A DNA stretch of 64,000 nucleotides, from contig VFIW01000064.1 in the NCBI GenBank assembly GCA_006386115.1, positions 186,001-250,000 of the forward strand, read 5' to 3'. Source of the stretch: Globisporangium splendens (taxonomy: Eukaryota; Oomycota; Peronosporomycetes; Pythiales; Pythiaceae). A model generated the notes under the pieces. It had not been told where the DNA came from and did not search any database. It was given only the letters and a program-made list of their open reading frames with translations. Position numbers and translations under genes: made by a program. Of the stretch, positions 8,218 through 62,400 are shown piece after piece; the first letter of the stretch is position 1; every line of letters starts with the position of its first letter.

Positions 8218-8647
8218 TGTAAGGACTGGGGTCGTACTTTTCCGGAGACGAACTTAACGAGGTGCGCACTTAACGAGAGGAAGGAAGATAGGAGGGTTGG
8301 TCTGGTCTGGATGGGCGCTTGGCAGTTGGAGAGTAGATTGAGAAGTGAGTTAGAATGCACTGCTCGCGCAGCTAGCTACTCTGGGCTGCCCTAGGGGCTC
8401 CCTCTTACTTCTCCTAGTGTCCTACGCCTCTTTTTCTCCTTTTTCTCTTACTGGATTTTTCTTCTTTTCTTTGCATTGTTCTTCAACTAATTCACTACTT
8501 CAATGGGTTCTTACTGGCCTCACACTGGCCTCATACATGCCTTACCTAGAGTTTATATAGACTTTTGTATACTATGTATATACTTCTTTTTCTGGCGACA
8601 TACCTGTCGCACTTAGCAGCTGGACCGTATTCATCTGGGTCCTTACA
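8218..8647 (-). repeat. 3' LTR of element A
   Basis: 430 bp, TGTAAGGA to TCCTTACA. The gag-pol stop codon (TAA on the minus strand, 8643-8645) lies inside its terminal inverted repeat. Confidence 0.95.
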
Positions 8648-13265: not shown

Positions 13266-13312
13266 CGTACTTAGCTAAAAGGAAAAAGTTCTGATTTAAA
13301 CTTAAGGAAGAG

Positions 13313-13696
13313 CTACTGTTGGGTCTTCTTACGCTTCTTCTTGGCTTCCTGGGAGTCTTGGGCCTTGCGCTTCAACTCAGCACGTTCTCTGACCTTCCGC
13401 TCTCTCGTCTTCTTGTGCTCTTTGACCTTGCGATCAGTGAAGATGCCAAGGATGGACTGGAGGTCGTTTACGTGGACTTGGGCCCTTACGACGATCTCGT
13501 GGACGTAATTACGAGCGTCCGAGTCGTCAACAACCGGGATCGTGTTGCGAAGGGCGATGAGTTGACTTGAGAGCTTCTCAGTCGTAGCGTAGAGGTTTGC
13601 ACGGAGTTTGTCGACGGCGGGATCGTCGGAATAGAGAGCAGAGAGAGGCTGAGCGAAGGTGTAGCGATCGACGGCGGGAGTCTTCTTTCGTGGCAT
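13313..13696 (-). CDS. extra small ORF (ORF0) in the leader of element A
   Basis: A 127-residue protein lying between the primer binding site and gag-pol, same strand, different frame. The N-terminal two thirds look helical (repeated Leu, Ala and charged residues), and the last about 45 residues are extremely Lys/Arg-rich, ending in KKKRKKTQQ, which suggests nucleic acid binding or nuclear targeting. No zinc knuckle or known Gag motif is present, and the main polyprotein already has a full Gag. The frame is intact with an ATG and third-position GC bias. Standard Ty3/gypsy elements have no ORF here. It could be an acquired gene, an expression regulator, or chance; function unknown. Confidence 0.65.
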   Translation of the reverse strand: MPRKKTPAVDRYTFAQPLSALYSDDPAVDKLRANLYATTEKLSSQLIALRNTIPVVDDSDARNYVHEIVVRAQVHVNDLQSILGIFTDRKVKEHKKTRERKVRERAELKRKAQDSQEAKKKRKKTQQ

Positions 13697-13973
13697 CCAC
13701 GGCTCTATCCAGGCTCTATCAACAGTGAGCTTTTGTAACCACAGACCGTTTAGCCAGCAACTTTAAACCGCTATCGAGACGTTATCCTCCCTTGGCAGCC
13801 GGTAGGGACAGGCACAAAGGCACTAGACCACTCAACACCCGGCTAGGAGCTCTCGATGTGATGCGGGTTGCAGCACGCAGTCGGGACAAGCAAAGCTCTA
13901 CCGGACGGAACCGACGGAGACTTTCAAAGGGACAAGGAACCAAGACCGAGAGGCGAGGGCTGAGCAGGACCAA

Positions 13974-13985
13974 CAAGTGCTACCA
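13974..13985 (-). other. primer binding site of element A
   Basis: Two bases inside the 5' LTR the minus strand reads TGGTAGCACTTG, beginning with the TGG complementary to a tRNA CCA end. Elements B and C have the same TGGTAGCACTT core. Confidence 0.75.
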
Positions 13986-13987
13986 CT

Positions 13988-14417
13988 TGTAAGGACTGGG
14001 GTCGTACTTTTCCGGAGACGAACTTAACGAGGTGCGCACTTAACGAGAGGAAGGAAGATAGGAGGGTTGGTCTGGTCTGGATTGGCGCTTGGCAGTTGGA
14101 GAGTAGATTGAGAAGTGAGTTAGAATGCGCTGCTCGCGCAGCTAGCTACTCGGGGCTACCCTAGGGGCTCCCTCTTACTTCTCCTAGTGTCCTACGCCTC
14201 TTTTTCTCCTTTTTCTCTTACTGGATTTTTCTTCTTTTCTTTGCATTGTTCTTCAACTAATTCACTACTTCAATGGGTTCTTACTGGCCTCACACTGGCC
14301 TCATACATGCCTTACCTAGAGTTTATATAGACTTTTGTATACTATGCATATACTTCTTTTTCTGGCGACATACCTGTCGCACTTAGCAGCTGGACCGTAT
14401 TCATCTGGGTCCTTACA
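13988..14417 (-). repeat. 5' LTR of element A
   Basis: 430 bp, identical to the left LTR except for five substitutions. A TATATAAA-like box (minus strand, 14321-14330) is a candidate core promoter. Confidence 0.95.
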
Positions 14418-37626: not shown

Positions 37627-37689
37627 AAAGTCACAAGTACCTTGCGTACTTTTGCAGACCTTCCGGAGCAGTTCACTTTCCAATCGGCC

Positions 37690-38751
37690 ATGAAGCGACC
37701 AAGTGACCAAGTGAACCAAGGTGAAGAACGTCCGTTGTCTAAGCGACAGCAGACAGCTCCAGAACTCTTCGACGTATCCTCCATTCTGAAGAAGAAGGGG
37801 GATCTCGAGTTCTACAAGGAGCGATTCTTCAGTTGGCGTCGGATCAACAATCGTGATCCGAACCAACCCATCGCAGCCCAGAGAGACTCATGGCGAACAT
37901 TCGTTCGTCTTGAGAACGAGAACCGAATGGAGCGTCTTCTTCGTCGTGGCAATGCTCGTGCCGAAAGAAGAACTCCTGCTGACGACAGAGCGAATCCCAG
38001 CTCTGGTCGTCGTAGTGTCGCTCCTGGCGACGCTACAAGCGGTTCTCGTAGCTGCGGACCACGTCGGGAACATCAGACTCCAATGTCTGACGTGGTTCCC
38101 ACGTGTCCGAGCTCGGTGGATATCCACGCCACCGAACTCTGTAGAAGCGTTGAGGACTCAACCGCTTCTTCCCACGAGTCGGTCGATCCTCATGATCAAC
38201 AATCGACTCAACCACCCAGCGATGATCTCCCTGAGAGTCTATCAATGGGGGTGGGGCTGAACGCCAAAACGATTGAGCGACTCTGGAAGTGGAAGAGTGC
38301 TCATCGCGCTCAGATTGAGACACTGGAAGTTCGCGATGCGATCCTTTCGGATCGGTGCGAGAGCCTCGAGGACCAAGTGAAGGAGCAGGAGCCGCGGATC
38401 GACTCGCTGACCTTTGGTCCCGCTCAGTATCGGGCTTTGGAGTCCCGTTTCGAGCAACGGTTCGAGCAAGTCCAGGGCGAACTTGAGCGACTCCAAAAGG
38501 CTGAGAAGGCTCGTGAAATGCATCACGAACGTCTGCTGCGCTCTGTGGAAGAGGCAGGGACGGCTCTTGAGGTACTCCGCAAGGAGTATAACTCGCGCCT
38601 TCTCGTGCTGGAAGCTGTGAAGGAGGAGTCCTTCGATGTGCTTCAGCGCCTTTACGCCGAGAAGAATCTCCAAAGCGATGAGCTGTTTGCTCTTCGCAAT
38701 CAAGTGGAGAAGCTTCAAGATCAGCTCGACCGTTTGCGGAAGATCTCGTAG
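37690..38751 (+). CDS. antisense coiled-coil protein (aORF) of element B', intact
   Basis: A 353-residue protein from the ATG at 37690, on the strand opposite to the pol remnant of element B'. The frame is open upstream to 37591, but the homologous copy in element B supports the inner start (MKR(P/S)SDQV). Residues 1-75 are basic with FYKExFFxWR and a later SWxTFVxLENEN segment; about 100-185 is Ser/Pro/Asp-rich and lies antisense to the chromodomain; about 190-353 is a long coiled coil (GLNAKTIERLWKWKSAHRAQIE, then heptads rich in Leu, Glu, Lys, Arg). Similarity to the element B copy is high over the coiled coil with mostly conservative changes, while the sense pol frame there differs more. 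It starts 76 bp from the LTR, so it may be driven by antisense activity of that LTR. Function unknown. Confidence 0.75.
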   Translation: MKRPSDQVNQGEERPLSKRQQTAPELFDVSSILKKKGDLEFYKERFFSWRRINNRDPNQPIAAQRDSWRTFVRLENENRMERLLRRGNARAERRTPADDRANPSSGRRSVAPGDATSGSRSCGPRREHQTPMSDVVPTCPSSVDIHATELCRSVEDSTASSHESVDPHDQQSTQPPSDDLPESLSMGVGLNAKTIERLWKWKSAHRAQIETLEVRDAILSDRCESLEDQVKEQEPRIDSLTFGPAQYRALESRFEQRFEQVQGELERLQKAEKAREMHHERLLRSVEEAGTALEVLRKEYNSRLLVLEAVKEESFDVLQRLYAEKNLQSDELFALRNQVEKLQDQLDRLRKIS

Positions 38752-39236
38752 GATCCGCTGATCCGCTTGGAAGGTAAGGCTTTAGTCTACCCACATAAAA
38801 TGTAGGATGTAGACGCATGCGTGTAGGTATGTCTAGCGTGTAGGCATCACCATTGCATTTAACCACCTTGAACGGTCCAATGAACCTTGGCAGAAGCTTC
38901 GAGCTTCCCAAGTTGGACACTGCATGTTCAGGCAGGTTCGCCGTGCTAAGTAATACAAGATCATTGATCTTATATACTTGCTTGTTCTTCCTTCCGCTCT
39001 TGTCTGCTTGTTCCTTTTGCAGATCCTGAGCCTTCGCGATTGCGTCTCGAACAAACCTCACAACGGCTTGTCTCCTCACAATAAAATCATCGACTTGCTG
39101 TTCCTCACGACTAGTGATGTCGTTGAGGGGTTTCATCGAGTCAAAGTTGGCTTTTAACTCAGAGGCAGCATTCGGGTCATACGACGACTGCGGCTTATTG
39201 CCTTTAGCCGTAGTCCCTCCCCCACTTAAGGTAGAG
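38033..39236 (-). pseudogene. 3' part of pol (integrase C-terminus and chromodomain) of element B'
   Basis: The minus-strand frame begins at the junction with the LTR at 39237 and encodes the STLSGGG region, the post-integrase domain (INDLVLLSTANLPEHAVSNL, then HPTFYVGRLKPYLPSGS), a long low-complexity linker, and a chromodomain (WVVESIVDHED, RFYRVRWRGYPP, SDTWEPRQTL). Everything upstream of this in pol is missing; the break is where element B begins. The linker and chromodomain lie antisense to the coiled-coil ORF. Confidence 0.88.
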
Positions 39237-39843
39237 TGTAATGGGCTAAGGCTGCCATTACATGCAAGGTGGCTCTTTGTGTGTGTCACACACCACCTTG
39301 TGGAAATGCATTGTGGGTGCGAAGATATTGGGTGAAACACATAATAGTGATCCCCACATGCACTTGTGACGTCATCGTCTGACGTCAGAGCAATCCGTGT
39401 CTGAGTTGAGTGTTGGTCGCTCGCAATCATTGAGATTCGGCGTGATTACGCACAACAGTACTCTAGACACGTGAGTGATGGTTCCTACTTGGTAAACTGC
39501 ACTGGTGATGAGACCGACGTGTCTCTGCCACCTAAAGTGTGGCGCGAGCCAATCACTTTGCAGGGAATTTTCCACGGGACGTCAAGTTCAAGTTTCTCGA
39601 AGATCCCCTGGGTTCAACCTCAGTGTACCCTAGGTTTTATATATCAGATTCATAGGTTTTATTGTGCATGTTTAGGTTTTAGTTATAAAACCTCTAGGAG
39701 CCCTAGTGGTGTTTTACATGTAGTGTCAGGAACCATAAGCTCATTTCAATTCAGTTGCATTTTTGCCAAGTTCCTCTCAAGTCTTCCTCTTCAAGCGCAA
39801 GCGTGCGTGCCGTGTTTGAGGCTGTCTCGGATAGCCTCTTACA
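39237..39843 (+). repeat. 5' LTR of element B
   Basis: 607 bp, TGTAATGG to TCTTACA. Contains two TGACGTCA sites and a TTTTATATATC TATA-like box at 39635-39645. Confidence 0.9.
39367..39387. promoter_or_regulatory. paired TGACGTCA palindromes in 5' LTR of B
   Basis: TGACGTCA at 39367-39374 and 39380-39387. This is the canonical CRE recognised by many bZIP proteins; placed about 260 bp upstream of the TATA-like box. Confidence 0.65.
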
Positions 39844-39845
39844 CC

Positions 39846-39857
39846 TGGTAGCACTTC
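39846..39857 (+). other. primer binding site of element B
   Basis: TGGTAGCACTTC, two bases after the LTR. The primer tRNA should end in AAGTGCTACCA. Confidence 0.75.
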
Positions 39858-39950
39858 GTAGTCCTTCCAACGACCAAGTCAAGAGTCTGCATAGGCCGCT
39901 TGTGTAGCGTGCGCGGACATTCCAAGACCCCTGTCCGATTGTGAGAAACA

Positions 39951-40994
39951 ATGGAAGGGATTGAGACGCCGATGGGCTCGATGCCTGGAGAGACCGTGGA
40001 GCTGACGAATGAGCATTTTCCTCATTTGTCGAGCCACGAGTGGGCAGCCCTCGAGCGTATGCGAGCGGTCATCGGTGAGGCAGCTGTGATCAGCTTGCTG
40101 AGATCAGCGTCACCGGATGAGCAGAGGAACGCGGCTACGAGCTTCATGCATCACGAGATCATGAACTCTCATCGACAGCCCGCAACTCCTGTCACGACGA
40201 TGAGAGTGGCACCTCTGAAGCTCGATGTATCTCCGTACCGTGGCGGAGAGAACGAACCTCTAGCGAGATGGTTCGTTGAGTTGGATGCAGCAATCACTGC
40301 AAGACAACTACGGGACCCAATGCAGCAAGTGTTGTTTGCGATGTCAAACCTTGCGGGTCGAGCGAAGAGTTGGGCGTATGGGAAGCGATTGGCGGAGCCA
40401 CATTGCTTCTACGACCTGGACGACTTCAAGCGAGAGCTGAAGAAGGCTTTTGAGCCTCCGCAGAGCGAATTTCGGGCTCGCGCTGAGTTCTTAAAGCTTC
40501 GTCAGGGTAAATACGACCTACACTCGTACGCTCAACGAGCACGATACCTCGTGTCAAGTATCGTGAATGAGCCGATTGATGCCTCAACGCAAGTTGTGAC
40601 ATTCATGGCAGGGCTCAATGATGGTCCAATTCGGAACCAGCTGTTCCGCGAGTACCCCAAGACGCTGGATGAAGCCATCGAGCGAGCGATGCAAGAAGAA
40701 TTCAGCATCAAGCAAGCCAAGTTCAACGGTTTCGGCCCTCGTCCTGTTCGACAACACGCAGTCACACACGACGGTCCAGAACCGATGGACATCTCGTATG
40801 CCGATGCGACTACAAGCAGATACCCACGCAATGACGGGAAGTGTTTCCGTTGTGGCAAGCCCGGTCACATCGCAAGAAATTGCAAGGTGTCCTTGCCAAG
40901 CCAGCAAGCGACACACGGTTCGCAATCGAATCGACCAGGCAGAGGCCGGCGATTCGAGCGTTCCCAACAGCCAAAAAACGGGAACGACCAGTAG
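39951..40994 (+). CDS. gag: Gag of element B
   Basis: A 347-residue capsid/nucleocapsid protein. The retrotransposon Gag core covers about residues 70-260 (SPYRGGENEPLARWFVELD, GRAKSWAYGKRL, FEPPQSEFRARAEF, LHSYAQRARYLVS). A CCHC knuckle (CFRCGKPGHIARNC) lies near residues 299-312, followed by a basic tail. It ends at TAG 40992-40994, inside the stem of the frameshift signal, so most ribosomes make Gag and a minority shift into pol. The ATG at 39951 is about 105 nt after the LTR. Confidence 0.93.
   Translation: MEGIETPMGSMPGETVELTNEHFPHLSSHEWAALERMRAVIGEAAVISLLRSASPDEQRNAATSFMHHEIMNSHRQPATPVTTMRVAPLKLDVSPYRGGENEPLARWFVELDAAITARQLRDPMQQVLFAMSNLAGRAKSWAYGKRLAEPHCFYDLDDFKRELKKAFEPPQSEFRARAEFLKLRQGKYDLHSYAQRARYLVSSIVNEPIDASTQVVTFMAGLNDGPIRNQLFREYPKTLDEAIERAMQEEFSIKQAKFNGFGPRPVRQHAVTHDGPEPMDISYADATTSRYPRNDGKCFRCGKPGHIARNCKVSLPSQQATHGSQSNRPGRGRRFERSQQPKNGNDQ
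40973..40979 (+). promoter_or_regulatory. -1 ribosomal frameshift slippery site A AAA AAC
   Basis: The heptamer is in the correct phase relative to gag (CCA AAA AAC GGG), and pol lies exactly in the -1 frame. A AAA AAC is one of the classical X XXY YYZ heptamers. The gag stop is 13 nt downstream. Confidence 0.85.
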
Positions 40995-43900
40995 GAGCGG
41001 GGCTCCCTACTGGGCGAACAAAGAGTTCTGTGAATGTCGTGGAAGCGCAGAACTCTTGCCCCGGTGTGCGCAACGCACATGAAGTTTCCGCGAACAGATG
41101 TGAGCGTGTCGAGCAAGAGCCAGCCTTGATAGTCCACAAGGTTAAGGTAGATGGTTACTCAGAACCTCTACGGGCTCTTGTAGACACTGGTGCGTCGAAC
41201 AATTTTGTCCGCACACAAGTGGTGAGAAGGCAAGGTTTGGACCTGCCTATCTCGAACAAGGAAATGATCGTTCGCTTGGCGAATGGATCGGAAGTGACGA
41301 TGCCTAAGCGCGTGTTGCGTATGGCAATCGAATGTGATGATTTCCGAGGCGAAGATGAGTTTATTCTACTCGACCTCGATGACAAGTTTGATCTGATTCT
41401 GGGAATGCCCTGGTTGAGAAGGTACCAACCGAGCATCGACTGGAAGAAGAAGAAGATCAGCGTCGACAAGCAAGTCGACGAAGACCTCAGCTGCCAGGCA
41501 GCAAGAGAGGTGATTTGGGCATATACATCTGTTGAAGATGTGTCTAATGAGAGTCAGGCGTGCGATGGCCCCTCACACTCAAATGACAAGCCCGTGAAGA
41601 CCACTGGAGGTGGAGTAGTCAGGCGCCAGAAAAAGACTACTCCTGTAGCCAAGAGCGATGAAGAGTTCCGCTCTGGCAGGGTTAAAGAAGACAAGAAGAC
41701 CGACGAAGAAGAACGAAGATCTGCAAGCGTCCCTGATCAAGACACAAGAAAGGCAGAAGATGAAGTGAAGCGACAAGAACAAGCCACTTCAAGCGAATAT
41801 GTGAACGTCGCAGTCTACAATGAAGAAGGTGACAGCCAGATAGTGCGTCACGTACAAGTGGAAAATCCTCCAAGTCTGGCTCAAGAATTGATTTCCTTGC
41901 CGTTGATGAGCAAGAAGACGCTTAAGCGTAGCCTGGCGAAAGGCGAAATTTCGCAAATTTGTGCGATCGTCGATGAAGTTGCCGACGATGTCATCAACAC
42001 TGCGGAAGTGTTAGATGAGAAGACACGGAAGGAGAGGTTTGATGAGCAGTCGTGGGACGCTCTAAAGACAAACCCCGTGTATGGACTTGTCAAGGAATAT
42101 GCGGACATATTTCCAGACAAAGTGCCGGACGAATTGCCGCAGGACAGAGGCATTCGTCACGAGATAGATGTACTTCCGGGAACGAAGTACTGTATCACGA
42201 GGCAATGGCCGCTACCGAAGGAACAAGTCGATGCGATCGACGAGTTCTTCGCGCAGCGACAGAAGGCTGGCCATGTGCGCGAGAGCAAGTCTCCGCACTG
42301 TAGTCCCACCTTCTGTGTGAAGAAGGCCACAGGCGGTTGGCGCATTGTTCACGCATTCAACAAATTGAATGATGCGACCATACCTGCTCAGACCCCAGTT
42401 CCACGCAAGGATATGATCCTTGATGGAATGGTTGGCAGCACTGTCTTTAGCGCGATCGATCTGAAAGACGGGTTCTATCAGATTCGAATGCGCGAGAGCG
42501 ATGTACCATTTACAGCAGTTAGCACCCCTAGTGGTATGCTGTGGGAGTGGATGGTGATGCCACAAGGTCTGAAGAACGCACCAGCAACTTTCAACAGAAT
42601 GGTCACGAATGTACTTCGTCCATTGAGAGAGTTTGCACCGAGCTACTTTGACGACATATTCGTTCATAGTAAGGCCTCGGAAGGGAAGAAAGATGTCGAT
42701 GTTCATCTTGAACATCTTCGTCAAGTCTTTCAAGTTATGCGTGAGAACAAACTGTACGCTAACTTGAAGAAATGCATCTTCTTCGCCCCCGAGATCCCTG
42801 TACTCGGTTGCTTTGTTGGCAAGAATGGCGTTCGGGTCGATCCTGAGAAGGTCAAGTCTATCGACGATTGGCCTATTCCTCAGAACGTCAAACAGCTACG
42901 TCAGTGGCTGGGTTTGGCCAACTATTTGCAAAAATACACGCGCAACTATGCAGCGTTAGTGCAACCCCTCACGAGTCTTTTGAAGAAAGATAATGAGTGG
43001 GAATGGTCAGAGGAACATCAGGCAGCGTTTGCCGAAGTAAAGAAGAGCTTAAGAGAAGCTCCTGTCCTAGCTCTCGCAGACCATGAGAAGCCGTTCCATG
43101 CAGTCTGCGATGCGAGCGACTATGCCATCGGGTGTGCACTGATGCAACACGATGATGAGGGCAAAGAAAGAGTTGTGTCGTATCAGTCACGACAACTCAG
43201 GCCCGCAGAACGGAACTATCCGGTCCATGACAAGGAACTATTGGCCATGAAGTATGCATTGGCAAAGTTCCGAGTCTATTTGCTTGGTGAAAAGCAGTTC
43301 GCTATTTACACTGATCACGCATCACTGCGGACAGCTGTAAAGACGCCTCACCTATCGCAAAGAATGGCAAGATGGTTTTCCTTCTTCGCTGAGTACAACT
43401 TTGTTGTACATTACAAGCCCGGCAAGTCAAACATTCTTGCCGATGCGCTGTCAAGACGTCCGGATTATGATCCGAAGAACAAGAGTGACGACACGAACGG
43501 AGCGTGCCGACTCTGTGAAGATGTCAACGCGATTGCTACGGGAGTGACAAGCACAGTCCAAGAAGAGATCACTGAGGGATACAAGCAAGACGAAGCATGC
43601 CAAGAACTGATCAAGTATTTCAAGAATCCCTCAGAGAAGGCACTCCAGAGCCTCCCACCAAGAGCAAGATCGCGTGTTCACCGTTACAGCATGCACAATG
43701 AGCTGCTGTACTATACGGTTGACGAAGGGGATCCAGCGAGGATCGTTGTCCCCAACGACGAAGGTCTGCGTCATCGACTCTTGTACGAGTATCATGACGG
43801 TCCTTCGAGTGGCCATCTCGGACGTGAGAAAACGTTTCTCAACTTGTCTCGAGATTACTACTGGCCTCACATGTACAAGTGGGTGCGCAAGTATGTAAGG

Positions 43901-45676
43901 ACTTGCGAAGTGTGCCAAAGAGTTAAGCCATCCGGCTCTACTCGGGCCCCACTTCGTTCATTGGCTGTCCCTCAGGACAGTTGGAAGTCTGTGAGTATGG
44001 ATTTCATATTCGGACTTCCAAGAGACAAACACGGACGCAATGGCATCCTTGTGTTTGTGGACCGATTCAGCAAGATGGTCCATCTTGCGCCTGTTTCGGA
44101 TAAGATCTCGGCAGAGATGACTGCGAAAGTCTTTGTAGACGTGGTGTTCCGTCTACATGGTCTGCCCTCGGAGATCGTATCAGACCGTGACACTCGGTTT
44201 ACGTCTAGGTTTTGGCGAACTCTGTTTGGCATTTTGGATACAAAACTATCCATGTCAACAGCAGCACACCCAGAGACAGACGGTCAAACTGAACGAGTGA
44301 ATCGTGTCCTTGAAGACGTGTTGCGCAGTTATGCGACGTCTTTCGGAGAGTGGAGTGAGTTTCTCCCTCTCGCAGAGTTTGCGTTGAACAACTCCACGCA
44401 TGTCTCGACAGGTCATACCCCGTTCTATGTGAACTACGGACTCCACCCGAGAGTGCCAGCGTCACTAGTGGGAGAGGTTTCTACCTTAAGTGGGGGAGAG
44501 ACTATGGCTAAGGAGCCACAGTCGGATCTGAATGCTGTCACAGAGTTAAAAGCGAATTTTGACTCGATGAAACCTCTAGACGACATGACAAGTCGTGAGG
44601 AACAGCAAGTCGATGACTTTATTGTGAGGAGACAAGCCGTTGTGAGGTTTGTTCGAGACGCAATTGCAAAGGCTCAGGATCTGCAAAAGGAACAAGCAGA
44701 TAGGAGCGGAAGGAAGAACAAGCAAGTTTATAAGATCAATGATCTTGTATTACTTAGCACGGCTAATCTACCTGAACACGCAGTGTCTAACTTGGGGAGT
44801 TCGAAACTTCTGCCAAGATATATTGGACCGCTCAGGGTAGTTAAATGCAATGGTGATGCCTACACACTAGACATTCCTAAACGCATGCGACTACACCCTA
44901 CGTTCTACGTAGGTCGACTAAAGCCTTACCTTCCAAGTGGGTCAGCGAACCCTACAGAGCCTTTGGCAGACGATCAAGTCGATCCTGAAGTCGCTCCACC
45001 AGCTCGCGAAGAGTCTGTAACTCATCGTCATGGAGCTTCTTCTCGGCATAAAGGCGCTGAAGCACATCAAAGGACTCGTCCTTTATTGTCTCCAACGCGA
45101 GAAGGCGACCATGATACTCCTTCCGAAGTATCTCAAGAGAAGTCCCTGCCTCTTCCACAGAGCGCAGTAGACGTTCGTGATACGCATCGCGAGCTTTCTC
45201 AGCCTTCTGGAGTCGTTCAAGCTCGGCTTGAATCTTCTCGAACCTCTGTTCGAAATGTGACTCCATTGTCGAACGCTGGGCAAGACCATCGAAGAGCAAG
45301 TCGATCTTCGACTCCTGCTCCTTCAACCGGTCTTCGAGGCTTTCGCACCGGTCTTCGAGTACCGCGTTGCGAACTTCAAGAGCCTCGATCTGAGCGCGGT
45401 GAGCACTCTTCCACTTCCAGAGTCGCTCAATCGTTTTCGCGTTCAGCCCCACCTCCTCTGATCGATCATCAGGGAGAGTGTCGTTGGATCGTTGAGTCGA
45501 TAGTCGATCACGAGGATCGATCGACTCGTCGTCGAGGAGAGAAGTCGTTGAACCGTCAACGCTTCTACAGAGTACGGTGGCTTGGCTATCCGCCGGACTC
45601 GGACACGTGGGAACCTCGAGAGACTCTTCAGTCTGATGTCCCCGACGTGGTTCACAGTTACGAACAGAGCTTGTAG
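40979..45676 (+). CDS. pol: Pol of element B (protease, RT, RNase H, integrase, chromodomain)
   Basis: About 1565 residues read by -1 frameshift from gag; the open frame itself starts upstream inside gag. The protease has LVDTGASNNFV. RT has the YFDD box (SYFDDIFVHSK) in place of the YLDD of element A. RNase H has VCDASDYAIG. Integrase has the HHCC domain (HDGPSSGHL...CEVCQRVK), catalytic Asp in SMDFIFGLP and SDRDTRF and the Glu of DGQTERVN. A low-complexity linker of about 180 residues, poorly conserved between copies, precedes a C-terminal chromodomain (WIVESIVDHED, FYRVRWLGYPPDSDTWEP) that should steer integration to modified chromatin. All frames are intact. The linker and chromodomain lie over the antisense ORF. 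Confidence 0.94.
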   Translation, partial: RERPVGAGLPTGRTKSSVNVVEAQNSCPGVRNAHEVSANRCERVEQEPALIVHKVKVDGYSEPLRALVDTGASNNFVRTQVVRRQGLDLPISNKEMIVRLANGSEVTMPKRVLRMAIECDDFRGEDEFILLDLDDKFDLILGMPWLRRYQPSIDWKKKKISVDKQVDEDLSCQAAREVIWAYTSVEDVSNESQACDGPSHSNDKPVKTTGGGVVRRQKKTTPVAKSDEEFRSGRVKEDKKTDEEERRSASVPDQDTRKAEDEVKRQEQATSSEYVNVAVYNEEGDSQIVRHVQVENPPSLAQELISLPLMSKKTLKRSLAKGEISQICAIVDEVADDVINTAEVLDEKTRKERFDEQSWDALKTNPVYGLVKEYADIFPDKVPDELPQDRGIRHEIDVLPGTKYCITRQWPLPKEQVDAIDEFFAQRQKAGHVRESKSPHCSPTFCVKKATGGWRIVHAFNKLNDATIPAQTPVPRKDMILDGMVGSTVFSAIDLKDGFYQIRMRESDVPFTAVSTPSGMLWEWMVMPQGLKNAPATFNRMVTNVLRPLREFAPSYFDDIFVHSKASEGKKDVDVHLEHLRQVFQVMRENKLYANLKKCIFFAPEIPVLGCFVGKNGVRVDPEKVKSIDDWPIPQNVKQLRQWLGLANYLQKYTRNYAALVQPLTSLLKKDNEWEWSEEHQAAFAEVKKSLREAPVLALADHEKPFHAVCDASDYAIGCALMQHDDEGKERVVSYQSRQLRPAERNYPVHDKELLAMKYALAKFRVYLLGEKQFAIYTDHASLRTAVKTPHLSQRMARWFSFFAEYNFVVHYKPGKSNILADALSRRPDYDPKNKSDDTNGACRLCEDVNAIATGVTSTVQEEITEGYKQDEACQELIKYFKNPSEKALQSLPPRARSRVHRYSMHNELLYYTVDEGDPARIVVPNDEGLRHRLLYEYHDGPSSGHLGREKTFLNLSRDYYWPHMYKWVRKYVRTCEVCQRVKPSGSTRAPLRSLAVPQDSWKSVSMDFIFGLPRDKHGRNGILVFVDRFSKMVHLAPVSDKISAEMTAKVFVDVVFRLHGLPSEIVSDRDTRFTSRFWRTLFGILDTKLSMSTAAHPETDGQTERVNRVLEDVLRSYATSFGEWSEFLPLAEFALNNSTHVSTGHTPFYVNYGLHPRVPASLVGEVSTLSGGETMAKEPQSDLNAVTELKANFDSMKPLDDMTSREEQQVDDFIVRRQAVVRFVRDAIAKAQDLQKEQADRSGRKNKQVYKINDLVLLSTANLPEHAVSNLGSSKLLPRYIGPLRVVKCNGDAYTLDIPKRMRLHPTFYVGRLKPYLPSGSANPTEPLADDQVDPEVAPPAREESVTHRHGASSRHKGAEAHQRTRPLLSPTREGDHDTPSEVSQEKSLPLPQSAVDVRDTHRELSQPSGVVQARLESSRTSVRNVTPLSNAGQDHRRASRSSTPAPSTGLRGFRTGLRVPRCELQEPRSERGEHSSTSRVAQSFSRSAPPPLIDHQGECRWIVESIVDHEDRSTRRRGEKSLNRQRFYRVRWLGYPPDSDTWEPRETLQSDVPDVVHSYEQSL
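40988..41013 (+). promoter_or_regulatory. frameshift-stimulating stem-loop
   Basis: CCAGTAGG (40988-40995) pairs fully with CCTACTGG (41006-41013); an inner AGC/GCT stem caps a GGG loop with one bulged C. The spacer from the slippery site is 8 nt. Element C keeps the stem with AGC/GCT changed to GGC/GCC, so one pair covaries. Confidence 0.8.
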
Positions 45677-46001
45677 TGCTCTCGCGAGCACTAGAACGAC
45701 GAGAGCCAAGCTCTTTATGGTCGTTCTCGAGCGTGCCTCCTAGGTTCCCTAGCAAACGCTCGACAAGATTCTCGTTCTCGAGTCAGACAAACGTCTTCCA
45801 CGACTCGAGCTTCGCTGTGCTGGACTGGCCAGGATCGTCGCTGCCGGACATCTTGCGCCAGAGGAAGAACAACTCCTTGTAGAACCGACGTCCTCCACGC
45901 TTCTTGCGAATAGCGGAGATGTCGTACAAGCCGGGAGTCGTCCGCTGCCGCTTTGGCTCGGGCTGTTCTTCGCGCTTCACTTGGTCGCTTGATCGCTTCA
46001 T
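44952..46001 (-). pseudogene. antisense coiled-coil protein (aORF) of element B, one in-frame stop
   Basis: The minus-strand frame from ATG 46001 to 44952 would encode about 349 residues homologous to 37690-38751. One TGA at 45783-45785 stands where the other copy has CGA (Arg), so this copy is split into a short N-part (46001-45783) and a 267-residue frame with its own ATG at 45755 that keeps the whole coiled coil. Conserved blocks include GLNAKTIERLWKWKSAHRAQ, ERLQKAEKAR and HERLLRSVEEAG. It starts 77 bp from the 3' LTR. Whether the downstream frame is still translated is unknown. Confidence 0.75.
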
Positions 46002-46064
46002 GGTCAATTGGAAAGTGAGAGCGGGTGCCTCTTCCGAAAGAAGTAAAGTCCGTGATGGAACTTT

Positions 46065-46077
46065 AAGGGAGGGATGA
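46065..46077 (+). other. polypurine tract of element B
   Basis: AAGGGAGGGATGA directly before the 3' LTR. A similar TTAAGTGGGGGAG tract occurs inside pol near 44488-44500. Confidence 0.8.
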
Positions 46078-46720
46078 TGTAATGGGCTAAGGCTGCCATT
46101 ACATGCAAGGTGGCTCTTTGTGTGTGTCACACACCACCTTGTGGAAGTGCATTGTGGGTGCGAAGATATTGGGTGAAACACATAAAAGTGATTCCCACAT
46201 GCACTTGTGACGTCATCGTCTGACGTCAGAGCAATCTGTGTCTGAGTTGAGTGTTGGTCGCTCGCAATCATTGAGATTCGGCGTGATTACGCACAACAGT
46301 ACTCTAGACACGTGAGTGATAGTTCCTACTTGGGAAACTGCACTGGTGATGAGACCGACGTGTCTCTGCCACCTAAAGTGAGTGGCTGTAGCCAATCACT
46401 TTGCAGGGAATTTTCCACGGGACTTCAAGTTCAAGCTTCTCGAATATCTCGTGGGTTCAACCTCAGTGTACCCAAGGTTTTATATATCAGATTCATAGGT
46501 TTTATTGTGCATGTTTAGGTTTTAGTTATAAAACCTCTAGGAGCCCTTGGGGTTCATTTACAAGTAGCGACAGGAACCATAAGCATTTTAATTCCGTTGC
46601 AATTTTACCCTCAAGTACTCAAGTCGTCTTCTCTCCCTCCAAGTCGGGAGATCGCTTCCTCAAGTCGCACAAGCGTGTGTGCCGTGTTTTGGGGACTGTT
46701 TGGAACAGCGCCCCATTACA
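46078..46720 (+). repeat. LTR shared by element B (3') and element C (5')
   Basis: 643 bp, TGTAATGG to CCATTACA, perfect 8-bp terminal inverted repeat. Confidence 0.9.
46208..46228. promoter_or_regulatory. paired TGACGTCA palindromes in the shared LTR
   Basis: TGACGTCA at 46208-46215 and 46221-46228, spacing identical to the other LTRs. Confidence 0.65.
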
Positions 46721-53981: not shown

Positions 53982-56900
53982 TTATTGAATAGATCGTTTT
54001 GCGAGCGACGCGAAAATGGACTCGGGCTGGCTCAACAACTCTTCTGGCGCTCCAAACTCGGCAACTTGACCCGCGTCCATAACCGCGATCTTGTCACAAT
54101 GCATGATCGTGTTGATGCGATGCGCGATGATCAAGACAGTCTTGGTCACAAACGTCTCCTTGATCGTCACTTGGATGAGGTTGTCAGTCGCTGTGTCCAC
54201 GTTCGCAGTCGCTTCGTCCAGCACCACGATCTTGCTGTTCTTGAGCAAGGCACGAGCGATACACAAGAGTTGTCGTTGGCCGACAGACAGGTTGTCGCCA
54301 CCTTCTGAGACGACAAAGTCGAGACCAGCTCCCCATTTTGTGACGCTGTCAGACAAGTGCACTTGTTGCAGAATGGACCAGATCTCGTCATCTGAATACT
54401 CGGAGAACGGATCCAAATTCTCACGCAGCGAGCCACTGTACAGCACCGGGTCTTGTGGGATGATCGCCAGACTGCGGCGCAAGTCGCGAAGCTTGACGCT
54501 TTGGATATCGATGCCGTCAATAAACACCGAGCCACTTTCAAACTCGCGGATGCGGAACAACGCCACCATCAGGGAGCTCTTGCCAGCACCAGTACGACCA
54601 CAGATACCGACCTTTTCGCCACCTTGGATGTCCATGTTGACACCACGAAGCACCAACGGCAACTCTGGGCGATACTTCAAGCACAATTTGTCAAACTTGA
54701 TGGCACCTTGCGATGGCCAGAGCTCAGCGTTGATTGGAGTAGACGCCGCGCCGTCATCTTCCTTTGGGATCTCGCGAAAGTGCAGCAGTCGCTCGACACT
54801 CGTCATCGCGTTGTCCGTACGATCCACCGAACGCACGGTGTTCTGGACGATCGATGTGAGCATCAACGAGTACGTCAACGAGATACCACCGACGACAGTG
54901 CTGATCTGACCTTTCGTCGCAACCAAGTAGAGTGACACGACGAAAATAATCACAACAGACATCCAATCCAAGCGCACCGCGAGCCATCTGCCTGCACCCC
55001 AGTACAAGAAATACGCCGCTGCGTTCCCGTCGACTGTGTCCTTGTTGATACGAATGAATTTGTCTTGCATCTTGAACGCTCGAATTGTGTGCAGACCAGT
55101 CAAAGTCTCGCCAAACAGGTTGTACACAGGCGTTCGCGTGATGCCCTCCAGTCGTTTCACTTCGCGCGACGTCTTCTTGAAGTACTTTCCGATCATGACA
55201 AAGAGAATGATCATCGGAATGTACGAGACACCGATCCAGTACGACGATGCTGCGGACACCGCCAAGGCACCAACCGTCATCGCGACATTCTGTAGTAACA
55301 GTTGGTATTGTTGTGGCAAACTCGCGTCAACTTGGTCGAGATCGTTCGAAAATCGGTTCAAGATGCGGCCCACAGGAGTGACATCAAAGTATCGATTCAC
55401 GGGAGCGCTCAGCACACGTCGAAACAGTTCGTTGTGCAAGTTGCTCGAGCTGCGAACGCACGCCTCGATCAGCAACTGGCCTCGAGCGACGGTCAGGATG
55501 CAACAGAGCACAATGAAACCCAGATACCACATGCCAAATTTCACGTCCGAGTACGAAGGGTCCACGCCGTTCCGGACCATATTCTTGGCCCAGTGGCCTT
55601 GCCACCAATCCACCAGCGTTCGCACACCTTGGCTCGTCGCGTAAATTATCAGCAAGAGGATCAGGACGATCACACCATTGAAGCCAGCCTCGTCAAAGTA
55701 CGACCTGTAGATTGCGCCGGTGACTTTACCCTTCACTCGATCTTCCGCCTGAACGAGTTTGGCTGGATCCTCTTGACCTTCAGATTTGCCAGATTCGGCA
55801 GCGTCTTTTGCGGACTGTTCCGCGGACATAACCACTTCCATCGCTACTGCAAGCGCAGATTCTCGCTGCTTCTCGTCTTCGTCGATCTCATGCTCATCGA
55901 TCACATCCTTCTCGAGCTTGTCCAGCGTTGTGCTTTGCATGCCGAGCTCTGGGAACTGCGCCAGAATCTCATTGTACGTGCCGTCGCCAGCGATGCAGCC
56001 GTCCTGGACCACGAGGATCTTGTCCGCATGCATCAGCAAGTCGTAGTGGCTGTTGAGTACCAGCAACCGCGTCTTGTCCTTTGCCAGACCCACGATGCAA
56101 TGGTTGAAAATGGCGTGGGCGACATGCGGATCCACAGCACTCAGCGGGTCGTCGAGAATCAGAATATCGTACTTGGATCGGTACATGGCTCTAGCGATCG
56201 CCACACGCGCTTTCTGACCACCACTGAGGTTGATGCCACGCTCACCGATCTCAGTCTGGTCGCCGTTGGGGAGTGCATGCAAGTCCAGCGCCAATTGCGT
56301 GGCTTCGAGCACTTTTTCGTATCGTTCGACATCAAGCTCAGCTTCAAACAGGATGTTGTCCTTTACGCTCGAGTTTCGGATCCACGATTCTTGGCTCACG
56401 TACGCGATGTCACCGTGAACGTCCACACGGCCTTGCGTCATTTTCATTTCGCCGAGGAGCGCATTCAGGAGACTGGATTTGCCCGACCCGACAGTACCAA
56501 TGATCATCACCAGACTGCCAGCGTCAATCTCCGCATTGATGCCTTCCAGTCGGAAACCGGGACCATTCACTAAGTCAATCTCGCCTCCAGGCACTTTCTC
56601 CTCGGTACCTTCGCCTTGGTCAGTGCTCACAACGACCACGTCTGGCGACGAGTCGGATTGGGACCATTGAAAGTGTGCGTCGCGGATAGAAATGGAGCCC
56701 CGAATAGTGGAGTCATCAGTAAGACCGCCTAGAGTTCTCGAAGCCGTTTGCTGCTCTTGGAGCTCTTCACCAGCCAGGTATGCGTCGATCCGGCGGAACC
56801 CGATTCGAGCTTGAGACACAGCAGCGATGGCGCGCGGAAACATGCCGACAGCTGCACGGCACACGTTCACCATCGCGATCAACGTGAACGCATCAGTGAC

Positions 56901-58043
56901 CGAGATGTCGCCTTGAATGATCACATACGCTCCCAAGGTCACGCCAGAGAGCAGCGTTGGCGTCAACAATAGCATTGCGGTGTTCAGCACTTGGTAGGTG
57001 TGGAACTTGCGGTACAAGCGCACCTCGACTTCTCGGATTTTCTCGACGCGGCGAGCCAGCGATTCTTCCCACGCGTAATACTTCATGACACGAATGCCCT
57101 GCAGCGCCTCCGACGTCACACGCACGCGCTCATCGACCACGTATAGCAGCTTGGATTGGAGTTGGCCGATCTGCTTCGCTTGACGGAGCGACGCGTACAT
57201 GACCACTACGAGCAGCACAGCGCCACAGAGCGCCGACCAGACATTGAAGAGCAGCGCAATCAGCACGATCGTGACAACGAAGCCGAACGGCGACATCACG
57301 ATCCAGAAGCCTTCCGACAGGCACGTAAAGATGCGCTCGGCATCGACGCTCATCAGCGTCACGATCTCGCCCGTCGTGTACGCCTGGCGCGCACCCGATG
57401 AGAGCCGCAGTGACTTCTGGTACACCATGTCCATAACCACGGAGCGCACGTTCACGCCTATGCGCGCCGTCATGTAGAACGCATGGTTCGAGCACGTGAC
57501 GGCCAGGAGCGACGACAACGTCATCATGGCCACGAGCACGTACCCATTGTTCACGTGGAAGATGTTGACGCGGTCGTTCAGGTAGTCCAAGATTGCTTGC
57601 GCGACGTACGATTGCAGCGCCAACGCGAGCGTGTATACGGTAAAGTTGGCCAAGATGATCGCAATGTCTGCGCGGAACGTCTTCAGGATCGCCATCACGA
57701 ACGGCGAGCGGCTGTGCTTCGTCTCGTTCTCAGGGTCGTAGTTCTGTACAAAGCGCGCATACACGGTATCGCACGAGTCCTCGTCGGCGATCGGCCAGAG
57801 GTCTCTGAGCTCGAGCACCTTGCGCGCGCCGAGCGAGATAAGCGGCTGCAGCCACTGGGCTGCGAGGATCGACGGCAGCGACGCTTTGGACACTGGATTC
57901 ACGCACTGCGAGAACGGCCGACCGGCTTCGTAGGTCTCGAGGAGAGAGCGCTTGGTGTTGGCATGCTGAGGTGGTGGTGAGGAGTCATTAGTGGTGGTTG
58001 GGGTCTGAGGCGCAGCCTCGTAGTGGTCCTGCGCAGACGGCAT
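53982..58043 (-). CDS. ABC transporter, ABCC/MRP type, paralogue 1
   Basis: A full transporter of 1353 residues from ATG 58043 (an open stretch upstream to 58187 looks non-coding). Order: cytosolic N-tail, TMD1, NBD1, TMD2, NBD2. NBD1 has Walker A GTVGSGKSS, signature LSGGQKARVAIARA and Walker B ILILDDPLSAVD, with Asp in place of the catalytic Glu, typical of ABCC. NBD2 has GRTGAGKSS, signature LSVGQRQLLCIARA and IVVLDEATANVD with the Glu. There is no TMD0, so it is a short MRP. The family exports glutathione or other conjugates across plasma or vacuolar membranes; the substrate is unknown. Intronless. Highly similar to the gene at 59450, so a tandem duplicate. Confidence 0.95.
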   Translation of the reverse strand: MPSAQDHYEAAPQTPTTTNDSSPPPQHANTKRSLLETYEAGRPFSQCVNPVSKASLPSILAAQWLQPLISLGARKVLELRDLWPIADEDSCDTVYARFVQNYDPENETKHSRSPFVMAILKTFRADIAIILANFTVYTLALALQSYVAQAILDYLNDRVNIFHVNNGYVLVAMMTLSSLLAVTCSNHAFYMTARIGVNVRSVVMDMVYQKSLRLSSGARQAYTTGEIVTLMSVDAERIFTCLSEGFWIVMSPFGFVVTIVLIALLFNVWSALCGAVLLVVVMYASLRQAKQIGQLQSKLLYVVDERVRVTSEALQGIRVMKYYAWEESLARRVEKIREVEVRLYRKFHTYQVLNTAMLLLTPTLLSGVTLGAYVIIQGDISVTDAFTLIAMVNVCRAAVGMFPRAIAAVSQARIGFRRIDAYLAGEELQEQQTASRTLGGLTDDSTIRGSISIRDAHFQWSQSDSSPDVVVVSTDQGEGTEEKVPGGEIDLVNGPGFRLEGINAEIDAGSLVMIIGTVGSGKSSLLNALLGEMKMTQGRVDVHGDIAYVSQESWIRNSSVKDNILFEAELDVERYEKVLEATQLALDLHALPNGDQTEIGERGINLSGGQKARVAIARAMYRSKYDILILDDPLSAVDPHVAHAIFNHCIVGLAKDKTRLLVLNSHYDLLMHADKILVVQDGCIAGDGTYNEILAQFPELGMQSTTLDKLEKDVIDEHEIDEDEKQRESALAVAMEVVMSAEQSAKDAAESGKSEGQEDPAKLVQAEDRVKGKVTGAIYRSYFDEAGFNGVIVLILLLIIYATSQGVRTLVDWWQGHWAKNMVRNGVDPSYSDVKFGMWYLGFIVLCCILTVARGQLLIEACVRSSSNLHNELFRRVLSAPVNRYFDVTPVGRILNRFSNDLDQVDASLPQQYQLLLQNVAMTVGALAVSAASSYWIGVSYIPMIILFVMIGKYFKKTSREVKRLEGITRTPVYNLFGETLTGLHTIRAFKMQDKFIRINKDTVDGNAAAYFLYWGAGRWLAVRLDWMSVVIIFVVSLYLVATKGQISTVVGGISLTYSLMLTSIVQNTVRSVDRTDNAMTSVERLLHFREIPKEDDGAASTPINAELWPSQGAIKFDKLCLKYRPELPLVLRGVNMDIQGGEKVGICGRTGAGKSSLMVALFRIREFESGSVFIDGIDIQSVKLRDLRRSLAIIPQDPVLYSGSLRENLDPFSEYSDDEIWSILQQVHLSDSVTKWGAGLDFVVSEGGDNLSVGQRQLLCIARALLKNSKIVVLDEATANVDTATDNLIQVTIKETFVTKTVLIIAHRINTIMHCDKIAVMDAGQVAEFGAPEELLSQPESIFASLAKRSIQ

Positions 58044-58186
58044 CGTGCTCAGGTGGAGATGTGCCTGAGTGAGCAACAGACGCGCAATTGCAAAGTGAGC
58101 GAGCGAGACGCCATCAAGATGGAGGCAATGCGCTCTTCGTCCATGCTCCCAAGAGCTCTTTTGCCTGATGGAAGAGATGGGCAGCA

Positions 58187-58333
58187 TCGCATATAGGAGC
58201 AGTCCGGATAAGCGGATGCATCTTATGTTGCGCGAGGTTCATCCTATCTTGCGCGACTTGTAAACTTTTCGTTGTGTTGCTGAAGGTTCATCCTATCGAT
58301 GGAGACACGTAAACCACTTGATTTGGATTGGAT
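58187..58333. repeat. imperfect direct repeat upstream of ABCC 1, copy 1
   Basis: Shares ATCGCAT-TAGGAG, GTCCGGATAA, ATCTTATGTTGC and GTTCATCCTATC blocks, in order, with 58598-58727. GTTCATCCTATC occurs twice in this copy. Confidence 0.7.
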
Positions 58334-59449: not shown

Positions 59450-62400
59450 TTACTGGATCGAGCGCTTGGCGAGTGACGTGAAAATCGAGTCCGGGTTGCT
59501 CAGCAGATCCTCCGGGGATCCGAACTCGGCGACTCGACCAGCGTCCATGACCGCGATCTTGTTGCAGTGCATGATCGTGTTGATGCGATGCGCGATGATC
59601 AACACGGTCTTGGCCACAAACGTCTCCTTGATCGTCATCTGGATCAAGTTATCGGTGGCCGTGTCGACATTGGCGGTCGCTTCATCGAGCACGACGATCT
59701 TGCTGTCTTTCAGCAAGGCACGAGCGATACACAAGAGCTGGCGTTGACCAACCGACAGGTTGTCGCCACTTTCCGAGACAGTGAAGTCCAGACCAGCTCC
59801 CCACTTGGTCACTGTGTCCGCGAGTTGCACTTGTTGCAACACAGACCAAATCGCATTGTCAGAGTACTCGCCAAAGGGATCCAGGTTCTCACGCAGCGAG
59901 CCACTGTACAGCACCGGGTCTTGTGGGATAATCGCCAGGCTGCGGCGCAAGTCGCGAAGCTTGACGCTTTGAATATCGATACCGTCGATGAACACCGAAC
60001 CACTTTCAAATTCGCAGATACGGAAGAGTGCGATCATGAGCGAGCTTTTACCGGCACCCGTGCGACCACAGATTCCTACTTTCTCACCACCTTGGATGTC
60101 CATGTTGACACCACGAAGCACCAGAGGAAGCTCGGGTCGGTACTTCAAGCGCAGTTTGTCGAATTTGATCGCACCTTGCGATGGCCAGAGCTCAGGGTTG
60201 ATAGGAGTGCAGTTGGCGCCATCGTCTTCGACGGGGATCTCGCGGAAGTGCAGCAATCGCTCGACACTCGTCATCGCATTATCTGTCTTGTCCACCGCGC
60301 GTACCGTGTTTTGCACAACGGACGTGAGCATCATCGAATACGTGAGCGAGATACCAGCGGTGACGGCACTGATCTGACCCTTCGTTGCGATCAGGTAGAT
60401 CGACACGACAAACACGATCGCGATCGACAGCCAGTCCAGACGCACAGCGAGCCATCGACCAGCTGCCCAGTACGAAAAGTACGCTCTCGTGTTCGTATCA
60501 ACGGCGTCCTTGTTGAGTCTCACGAATCGGTCCTGCATCTTGAACGCGCGGATCGTGTGCAAGCCAGTCAAGGTCTCGCCAAACAAGTTGTACACCGGCG
60601 TGCGCGAAATGCCTTCAAGTCGTTTCACTTCGCGTGAGGTCTTCTGGAAGTACAGCGCCGTCGCGATGAAGATACCGATCATCGGAATGTACGAGATGCC
60701 AATCCAGTATGATGAAAACGCAGAGACAACGAGCGAACCAAACACCTGCGCTGTGTTCTGGAACGTGATCTGGTACTGTTGTGGCAACGTCGCGTCCATC
60801 TGATCGAGGTCGTTCGAGAAACGGTTCAGGATACGACCTACAGGTGTCACGTCAAAGTACCGGTTGACTGGGGCAGCAAGCACGCGGCGGAAGAGCTCGT
60901 TGTGCAGGTTCTTGGCACTGAGAATGCACGCTTCGGCGAGCATGAGACCGCGTCCGACGATCAAGATGCAGCAGAGCACGATCAGACCAAGGTACCACAT
61001 GCCGAATTTCAAGTTCGAGTACGTTGGGTCAACGCCTTCACGACGCATTTCTCTTGCCCAGTGTCCTTGCCACCAATCACAGAGCGTTCGCACGCCCTGA
61101 CTCACAATGTAGAGCACGACAAAGATCACGAGCAGCAAGATGCCGTTCATGCCAGCTTCATCAAAGTACGCCTTGTAGATCGCGCCTGTCACCTTGCCCT
61201 TGACGCGGTCCTCAGCCTTGACGAGCTTGGCGTCGTCGTCCTTGGCTTGCGGCTTCTTGACCTCAATGCCGTCTTTCTGCTTCGAGGACCCGGTTCGCTT
61301 TCTCGCGACGGCGACCGCGATCTCGTGGTTCTTTTCTTCCTCGTCGGTACTGTTGTGCTCATCAATCACATCCTGCTCGAGCTTGGCGAGCGCCTCACTT
61401 TGCATGCGAAGGTCAGGGAACTGCGCGATAATCTGGTCATAGCTGCCATCGCCAGCGATGCGACCGTCCTGGACCACGAGGATTTTGTCGGCGTGCACCA
61501 GCAGATCGTAGTGGCTGTTGAGCACCAGCAAACGGGTCTTGTCCATGGCGAGACCGACAATACATTCATTGAAGATCGCATGCGCGACGTGCGGGTCCAC
61601 GGCACTCAGTGGATCATCCAAGATCAAGATGTCGTAGTCTGGACGGTACATGGCTCGCGCGATAGCGACACGAGCCTTCTGGCCACCACTCAAGTTGATG
61701 CCACGCTCACCGATCTCGGTCTGGTCGCCATGCGGGAGTGCATTCAAGTCCAGAGACAACTGCGTCGCATCGAGCACGCGCTGGTACTGGTCTGCGTCGA
61801 ATGCCGATTCAAAGAGGATGTTTTCCTTGACGCTCGAGTTGCGGATCCACGATTCCTGGCTCACGTACGAGAGCTTGCCGTTGACGCTCAGGTGGCCGTC
61901 GGTCAACGCCATTTCACCCAGGATTGCATTCAGCAGACTCGACTTGCCCGAGCCGACGACCCCAACGATCATCACGAGCTCGCCAGCGTCGACTTCAATG
62001 TTCACGCCTTCCAAGCGGAACCCGCGAGGCGATGGCGCCACCGAGGCGCTTGGGGTATCGTCCTTGGTCACAGTGTCCTGGTGGTTCGCCACCTCAGCTT
62101 CATTGCTGTCCTCTGGACGCACGAGCACGACATCTGGCGACGCCATTGAGTGCGACCACTGGAACTGCGCATCGCGCACCGAAATGGTGCCGATTGGAGC
62201 CGATTCATCGTTGGTAGGAACCGCGCCTTCAAGAAGTCGGTGGACATCGAGCTCTTCGCCCACGAGGTACGTGTCGATGCGATTGAACGCAATAAGACCC
62301 TGGGAGATCGCGGCGATCGCACGCGGGAACACGTGCACGGCATGACGAGAGATGTTGACCATCGCGACGAGCGTGAACGCGTCCGTGACCGAGATCGTGT

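Follow-up and report, generated by a model that had tools for sequence, protein, structure and literature searches.

The antisense gene and its elements

The 64,000-nucleotide window analysed here, which comes from contig VFIW01000064.1 of the oomycete Globisporangium splendens, holds three elements of one chromodomain Ty3/gypsy family (copy 1, element 2 and a third element), and in two of them a long gene runs antisense to the end of pol. The family is assigned to the chromodomain-bearing Ty3/gypsy elements by its Pfam domains, with a zinc-knuckle Gag followed in order by protease, reverse transcriptase (RT), RNase H, integrase and chromodomain. Element 2 (39237-46720, plus strand) lies between a 5' long terminal repeat (LTR) at 39237..39849, whose 3' edge is approximate, and a 3' LTR at 46078..46720, the two being identical at 556 of 608 positions (91.4%). 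It encodes gag (39951..40994, with Retrotrans_gag and zf-CCHC matches) and a pol open reading frame (ORF) of 1611 amino acids (40841..45676, with protease, RT, RNase H, integrase, SH3 and chromodomain matches), the chromodomain itself lying at 45485..45667 (PF00385, E 9.5e-12). The copy 1 element occupies the minus strand and its pol is interrupted by element 2; the remaining C-terminal piece is an ORF (38033..39235, minus strand) that ends at the 5' LTR of element 2, matches 44480-45676 at 82.4% and carries its own chromodomain (38039..38218, PF00385, E 9.7e-13).

The earlier note on this DNA had described a long frame antisense to the end of pol in two copies (37690-38751 and 44952-46001), beginning about 75 bp from the LTR, and the ORFs bear this out: the distance between the ATG and the LTR edge is 76 nucleotides (nt) in copy 1 and copy 2 alike (LTR edge of copy 2 at 46078). 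As to both copies being open, this holds for copy 1, where a single intact plus-strand frame of 353 amino acids extends from the ATG at 37690 to the stop at 38751, and fails for copy 2 (minus strand, 349 codons, ATG at 46001, stop at 44952), in which codon 73 is an in-frame TGA (45783-45785). The gene is 349-355 amino acids long, with about 110 codons past the pol stop and about 240 overlapping pol. In copy 2 the pol stop (45674-45676) leaves roughly 325 nt of the antisense gene free of pol; the whole interval between that stop (45676) and the LTR (46078) measures about 0.4 kb, and most of the antisense ORF falls within the overlap. The third element stands in tandem with element 2 by way of the common LTR at 46078-46720, which doubles as its 5' LTR position; its family similarity ends at 51776, a little short of where the antisense gene should start, and a tblastn search of the window found no further match to the gene better than E 0.07.

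Could such a frame stay open merely as a consequence of how pol is encoded? Across the 239 overlapping pol codons the antisense frame contains no stop at all, an outcome reached in 0 of 5000 synonymous permutations inside the overlap (mean 7.8 stops) and in 2 of 5000 recodings based on codon usage in pol outside the overlap (mean 7.5 stops).

Copies across the genome

A search of the G. splendens assembly (53,310,241 bases) that took the protein of copy 1 as its query scored 115 matches among 485 candidates, and 106 of the 115 were free of stops within the match, a share biased upward by the fact that the scored matches were the best-scoring ones. A second genome query (116 scored among 481 candidates) contributed 67 rows representing places of a subfamily, B, that were new relative to the first list, and in all the gene occupies at least 182 distinct places. 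Ninety loci were read. Seventy of them, 30 in subfamily A1 and 40 in B, were picked by antisense score, which favours intact copies; for the other 20 the pol SH3 region was the only criterion. The antisense frame is full-length and stop-free in 28 of the 30 A1 loci, 30 of the 40 B loci and 9 of the 20 pol-chosen loci; among the 65 of these 67 intact copies that include the stop, the protein has 349 amino acids in 29, 352-355 in 35 and 374 in one. All 20 pol-chosen loci carry at least part of the antisense gene at the expected place, and 10 of them keep the pol C-terminus fully open across the same DNA. Of eight copies compared, five (L001, L061, L071, L073 and L083) have a second sense frame across the antisense gene that stays open for 179-180 codons, and in L002, L032 and L065 it does not.

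Alternating constraint on the two frames

The geometry of the overlap places position 1 of each antisense codon opposite pol position 1, position 2 opposite the pol wobble position and position 3 opposite pol position 2, so that the two genes predict opposite patterns of substitution. Codon alignment was possible for 77 of the 90 loci, the other 13, L060 and L069 among them, being left out for a frame break, truncation or lost start. In averages between subfamilies, changes over the chromodomain fall at antisense position 2, those over the antisense coiled coil and beyond the pol stop fall at antisense position 3, and pol wobble sites vary most across the disordered linker of the antisense protein (codons 94-181). 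The same trend is seen within subfamilies, where it is patchy, with exceptions such as A1 copies in CC2 and B copies at the junction and in the stretch that precedes the pol stop.

Pairwise tests with one representative of each of the three subfamilies (A1, A2 and B; three pairs) give the same picture. Differences in the coiled coil are distributed over antisense positions 1/2/3 as 25/23/54, 32/21/48 and 40/29/70, a bias that is significant in all three pairs (chi-square p 1.4e-4, 4.2e-3 and 6e-5) and, because antisense position 3 is pol position 2, is the reverse of what selection on pol alone would produce. Beyond the pol stop the bias is significant in two of the three pairs (p 0.08, 0.039 and 0.023), and over the chromodomain the counts lean in the expected direction without reaching significance at the 5% level (p 0.65, 0.098 and 0.078). 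Ratios of nonsynonymous to synonymous change (dN/dS, Nei-Gojobori) for the antisense frame are 0.30, 0.21 and 0.19 in alignment columns 1-85 and 0.29, 0.26 and 0.25 in the coiled coil; those for pol are 0.33, 0.30 and 0.27 in the chromodomain and 1.6-2.1 over the coiled coil. As proof in their own right these ratios were rejected: counts in overlapping frames are biased, and an unrelated frame with 17 stops in two sequences also returned 0.34. Simulations and permutations were added for this reason.

Under a null model of selection on pol alone, run at three strengths for each of the three pairs (nine settings, 300 runs each), none of the 300 runs matched the observed antisense identity or position bias of the coiled coil in any setting. 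For the chromodomain most settings fail to reject this null, 12 to 217 of 300 runs reaching the observed antisense identity. Two controls behave as ordinary pol. Immediately upstream of the antisense gene, differences at pol positions 1/2/3 number 39/21/115, 37/20/116 and 26/16/110, the usual wobble pattern (two of these comparisons draw on a segment of L003 that contains three stops); and another Ty3-like family in the window, which also has long antisense frames, again displays the ordinary pol wobble pattern. The codon-position test is thus able to return a negative answer. As the earlier note had proposed from two copies, the position counts, dN/dS values, simulations and permutations all reveal the alternation of two real overlapping genes: purifying selection acts on both frames beyond what either frame alone predicts, and does so in separate stretches, constraining the antisense frame in its N-terminal domain and coiled coil and, within the overlap, pol only over the chromodomain.

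Age of the overlap

The overlap can be followed in proteins as well, since two neighbouring antisense residues limit one pol residue and the mirror image of the chromodomain can therefore be scored in protein sequence. When the pol chromodomain core was scored against 20 homologues in all registers, its antisense image appeared in 18 at the homologous place, with scores of 23-43, second-best registers below 0 and z values of 9.6-17.4 relative to shuffled cores; the remaining two, P0089 and P0090, score nothing, and both start at residue 188, so that the region is not covered. Nine environmental proteins with 43-51% identity to copy 1 are among the 18. Retention of the mirror image in such distant homologues indicates that the overlap is old and predates the split of these relatives, as judged from their proteins rather than their DNA. 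A search by pattern for the DNA of distant relatives produced 7 stretches in viral contigs and 52 in genome contigs, none of which was confirmed.

In three protein searches the antisense protein matched only G. splendens and environmental proteins. Two of these searches scored the 7994 and 7996 candidates sharing most words, and the third, made with residues 1-100, scored all 121. The host is an oomycete, as anticipated in the earlier note, the protein matches being named FI667_g for G. splendens. That only one species is named among the matches may be a result of repeats having been masked in other annotations. In the G. splendens annotation the family is entered solely as hypothetical proteins. 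Three annotated proteins, P0064, P0067 and P0070, resemble mis-joined models of the gene, one omitting the codons around the TGA and two being fused to copia-like or pol sequence.

The predicted protein and a candidate promoter

An AlphaFold2 model built from a 60-sequence alignment (mean predicted local distance difference test score, pLDDT, 75; predicted template modelling score 0.29) places helices at residues 39-52, 61-76 and 80-93, a short one at 96-100 and then a single helix at 182-352. Block means of pLDDT are 85-93 for residues 31-90, below 70 before them and 84-99 from residue 191, and the linker at 94-181 is of low confidence, mostly under 50. The predicted architecture therefore consists of a three-helix N-terminal domain, a disordered linker and one long helix, which in copy 1 correspond to 37690..37968 (codons 1-93, no pol overlap), 37969..38232 (codons 94-181, rich in serine, threonine and proline and mostly antisense to the chromodomain) and 38233..38745 (codons 182-352, interpreted as a coiled coil), all on the plus strand. 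In this model the ordered part of each strand would face the loose part of the other, the antisense linker lying over the chromodomain and the long helix over the weakly constrained pol linker. The N-terminal 95 residues are basic in both copies (K+R 23 and 19; D+E 14 and 14), and copy 2 matches the pattern of a bipartite nuclear localisation signal (NLS). For neither copy does any Pfam-A family row reach the cut-off, and at E up to 1 the Pfam-A matches include neither TRP28 (PF04195) nor bZIP. A sequence search of the PDB gave one match at E 0.72, which is meaningless, and in the libraries searched the protein matched no known family or fold.

Oomycete promoters may contain an initiator, YCAYTYY, and an FPR element, MWTTTNC, the two being separated by two bases in the example promoter of the sections of PMC3599244 drawn on here. 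Among 79 copies with a located ATG, 75 contain a match to YCAYTYY within 75 nt upstream; its start lies precisely 17 nt ahead of the ATG in 74 of the 79 and 16 nt ahead in one, and 74 of the 75 initiator-bearing copies have, at a spacing of two, an FPR-like heptamer agreeing at 5 or 6 of 7 positions. The window examples are TCACTTT (37673-37679) with AATCGGC (37682-37688; 5/7) on the plus strand in copy 1 (37673..37688) and TCACTTT (46018-46012) with AATTGAC (46009-46003; 6/7) on the minus strand in copy 2 (46003..46018). A1 and B share 91% identity in the initiator-FPR stretch, against 50% in the adjoining spacer. With the LTR edge 76 nt from the ATG, this candidate initiator, the sole conserved promoter-like element found, lies outside the LTR. 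The earlier description of the gene as LTR-driven is accordingly not supported as written, and an antisense transcript starting within the LTR is possible.

What might the antisense protein do?

Taken together, these sequence comparisons make it almost certain that the frame is a real protein-coding gene. It starts a short way in from the 3' LTR, reads back over the chromodomain and then the linker of pol, and would be transcribed from its own candidate initiator 17 nt before the ATG. The basic N-terminus, the NLS pattern of copy 2 and the long helix of coiled-coil type make an oligomeric nuclear accessory protein the simplest reading. Such a protein, probably nuclear, could regulate the transcription, RNA, complementary DNA (cDNA) handling or integration of the element, perhaps acting, by analogy, like retroviral antisense accessory proteins. 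As a joint explanation, an antisense gene with its own initiator that encodes an accessory regulator of the element, oligomeric and probably nuclear, seems to us the best on offer and reasonably probable; the nuclear regulatory role taken separately, judged from sequence features, is tentative. A further proposal holds that the gene arose by overprinting in this lineage, its ordered and disordered parts being fitted in complementary fashion to the chromodomain and linker of pol, and that it encodes a nuclear coiled-coil regulator with its own promoter, which would be an oomycete parallel, of independent origin, to the antisense regulators of retroviruses. As a whole, this proposal is conceivable but doubtful.

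A number of observations weigh against the joint explanation. Some concern preservation. The antisense frame is fully open in only 9 of the 20 pol-chosen copies, pol itself being open in 10 of the same 20; the earlier note had counted a frame broken in most copies at the neutral rate as evidence against a gene. Among the 70 antisense-chosen copies the pol C-terminus is free of a stop or frame change in 64 and the antisense frame is open in 58, so that the latter is somewhat less well kept. Its dN/dS is 0.9-2.1 across the chromodomain, without constraint of its own there, and in columns 85-116 constraint is weak in comparisons with B (0.73 and 0.60; A1 versus A2, 0.08). Others concern the protein and promoter. 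Folded alone, the N-terminal part yields two helices at lower confidence, and copy 1 has no bipartite-NLS match, so that a nuclear role rests on the basic residues and the copy 2 pattern. The initiator motif occurs in 20% of shuffled 75-nt upstream stretches, which is why its fixed position and conservation carry the weight, and the implied 5' untranslated region of about 15 nt is short beside the 32-144 nt of the P. infestans set in the same portion of PMC3599244.

The remaining adverse points are damaged alleles. Of 37 aligned B copies, 7 have TGA rather than CGA at codon 73 (copy 2 of the window, which is L031, together with L037, L045, L053, L056, L057 and L067), and two further B copies, L060 and L069, have GTG in place of ATG plus a TGA at codon 3. 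The full protein is therefore not required in every copy. The nearest neighbours of the TGA-73 copies are mostly CGA copies, the allele being spread across different backgrounds, which suggests either that the protein can be provided in trans or that an individual copy can do without it. A selected short form of 72 amino acids was considered and rejected, because the codon-73 site is just one of 35 polymorphisms shared among 28 B copies (TGA in 6 of the 28), 11 of the 35 being CpG transitions. The pattern of shared polymorphism points to recombination between active copies. In L061 and P0053 a B-type N-terminus is joined to an A2-like coiled coil (compare L032 and L073), and modules seem to have been exchanged between subfamilies.

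The principal alternative is that the product is a structural partner of Gag, its coiled coil aiding particle assembly or tethering cDNA and integrase within the particle. A single predicted helix of about 171 residues would suit a scaffold, and the persistence of at least part of the gene in every pol-chosen locus counts in its favour; expression from the opposite strand by its own initiator-like motif would, however, uncouple its dosage from that of Gag, and the searches produced no capsid or matrix family match, which is weak evidence. We regard a Gag partner as unlikely, though worth keeping in mind. Alternatively, the product might restrain the element in trans, as a form of copy-number control that single copies are free to lose. 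The recurrence of TGA-bearing copies across subfamily B backgrounds fits such restraint, but trans-complementation accounts for these copies equally well, and the purifying selection that has long acted on the protein at either end exceeds what a purely optional inhibitor would need, leaving this option rather improbable.

That the open frame is a by-product of pol codon usage or composition, with no protein made, recalls the other Ty3-like family of the window, whose long antisense frames (54091-54909 and 59567-60637) accompany a plain pol pattern; the opposite pattern of that very family, the permutation and simulation tests, the roughly 110 codons outside pol and the conservation of codons 1-85 as protein make it scarcely credible. 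Equally remote is constraint on an antisense regulatory RNA or DNA structure, since, even if retroviral antisense transcripts can function as RNA (PMC10186651, in part), the constraint here tracks codon positions and amino-acid identity and homologues at 43-51% identity retain the protein architecture.

Relation to known antisense genes

Among plant Ty3/gypsy elements, Retand, Grande and RIRE2 carry antisense ORFs near the 3' LTR, most of which encode TRP28, and the excerpted text of PMC11963269 reports such an ORF in all of its Retand clusters, giving the function as unknown. The G. splendens family resembles these elements in being Ty3/gypsy and in having its antisense ORF in the stretch that separates the polymerase core from the 3' LTR. 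The Retand-type ORFs, however, occupy a pol-3' LTR region of 2.9-6.6 kb in non-chromoviruses (PMC11963269, same excerpt), as opposed to about 0.4 kb here, and the G. splendens ORF differs further in overlapping pol by about 240 codons, in belonging to a chromodomain element of an oomycete host and in lacking a TRP28 match.

HBZ of human T-cell leukaemia virus type 1 and its relatives APH-2/3/4 likewise read back from the 3' LTR side and possess a C-terminal helix suited to dimerisation, a helix that is predicted in our case; HBZ has a bZIP domain and a promoter in the 3' LTR (PMC10186651, as excerpted), whereas the G. splendens protein has no bZIP match. Also unlike HBZ, its predicted helix is much longer and its conserved candidate initiator lies outside the LTR. 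In human immunodeficiency virus type 1, the antisense protein ASP lies over env and its constraint is debated; in the G. splendens family, by comparison, constraint is measurable on both frames, in separate stretches. ASP is also an antisense retroviral protein, with a function described as unknown in the available part of PMC10186651.

Chronos elements are, like the present family, oomycete Ty3/gypsy elements with a chromodomain, and have an additional plant-like RNase H (PMC5348765, partial text); the G. splendens pol returned only RT_RNaseH matches for RNase H at E up to 1 in Pfam. The word 'antisense' is absent from the text of that survey of oomycete chromodomain elements (PMC5348765), and none of the papers listed by the literature searches, made in an open-licence PMC library, announces an oomycete antisense retrotransposon gene. 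The gene differs from the known antisense ORFs in its host, its protein, the depth of its overlap with pol and the alternation of constraint. Long antisense overlaps supported at the protein level for both strands are, to our knowledge, rare. The many copies in one genome amount to a natural experiment on two genes sharing one stretch of DNA, and the finding adds an oomycete to the hosts in which LTR elements carry antisense accessory genes, the protein here being one without a family match in the libraries searched. Scoring the mirrored chromodomain furthermore offers a protein-only test that can reveal the overlap where the DNA of relatives is not at hand.

Other elements in the window

The other family, putatively Ty3-like, occupies 53982-58187 and 59450-63607, and its long antisense frames run across the C-terminal part of pol; within the final 100 codons 42 of 53 differences fall at wobble positions. 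At the opposite end of the window, two 430-bp repeats (8218-8647 and 13988-14417) that are 98.8% identical stand on either side of an ORF of 1540 amino acids, and this arrangement (8218-14417) is perhaps a young LTR element.

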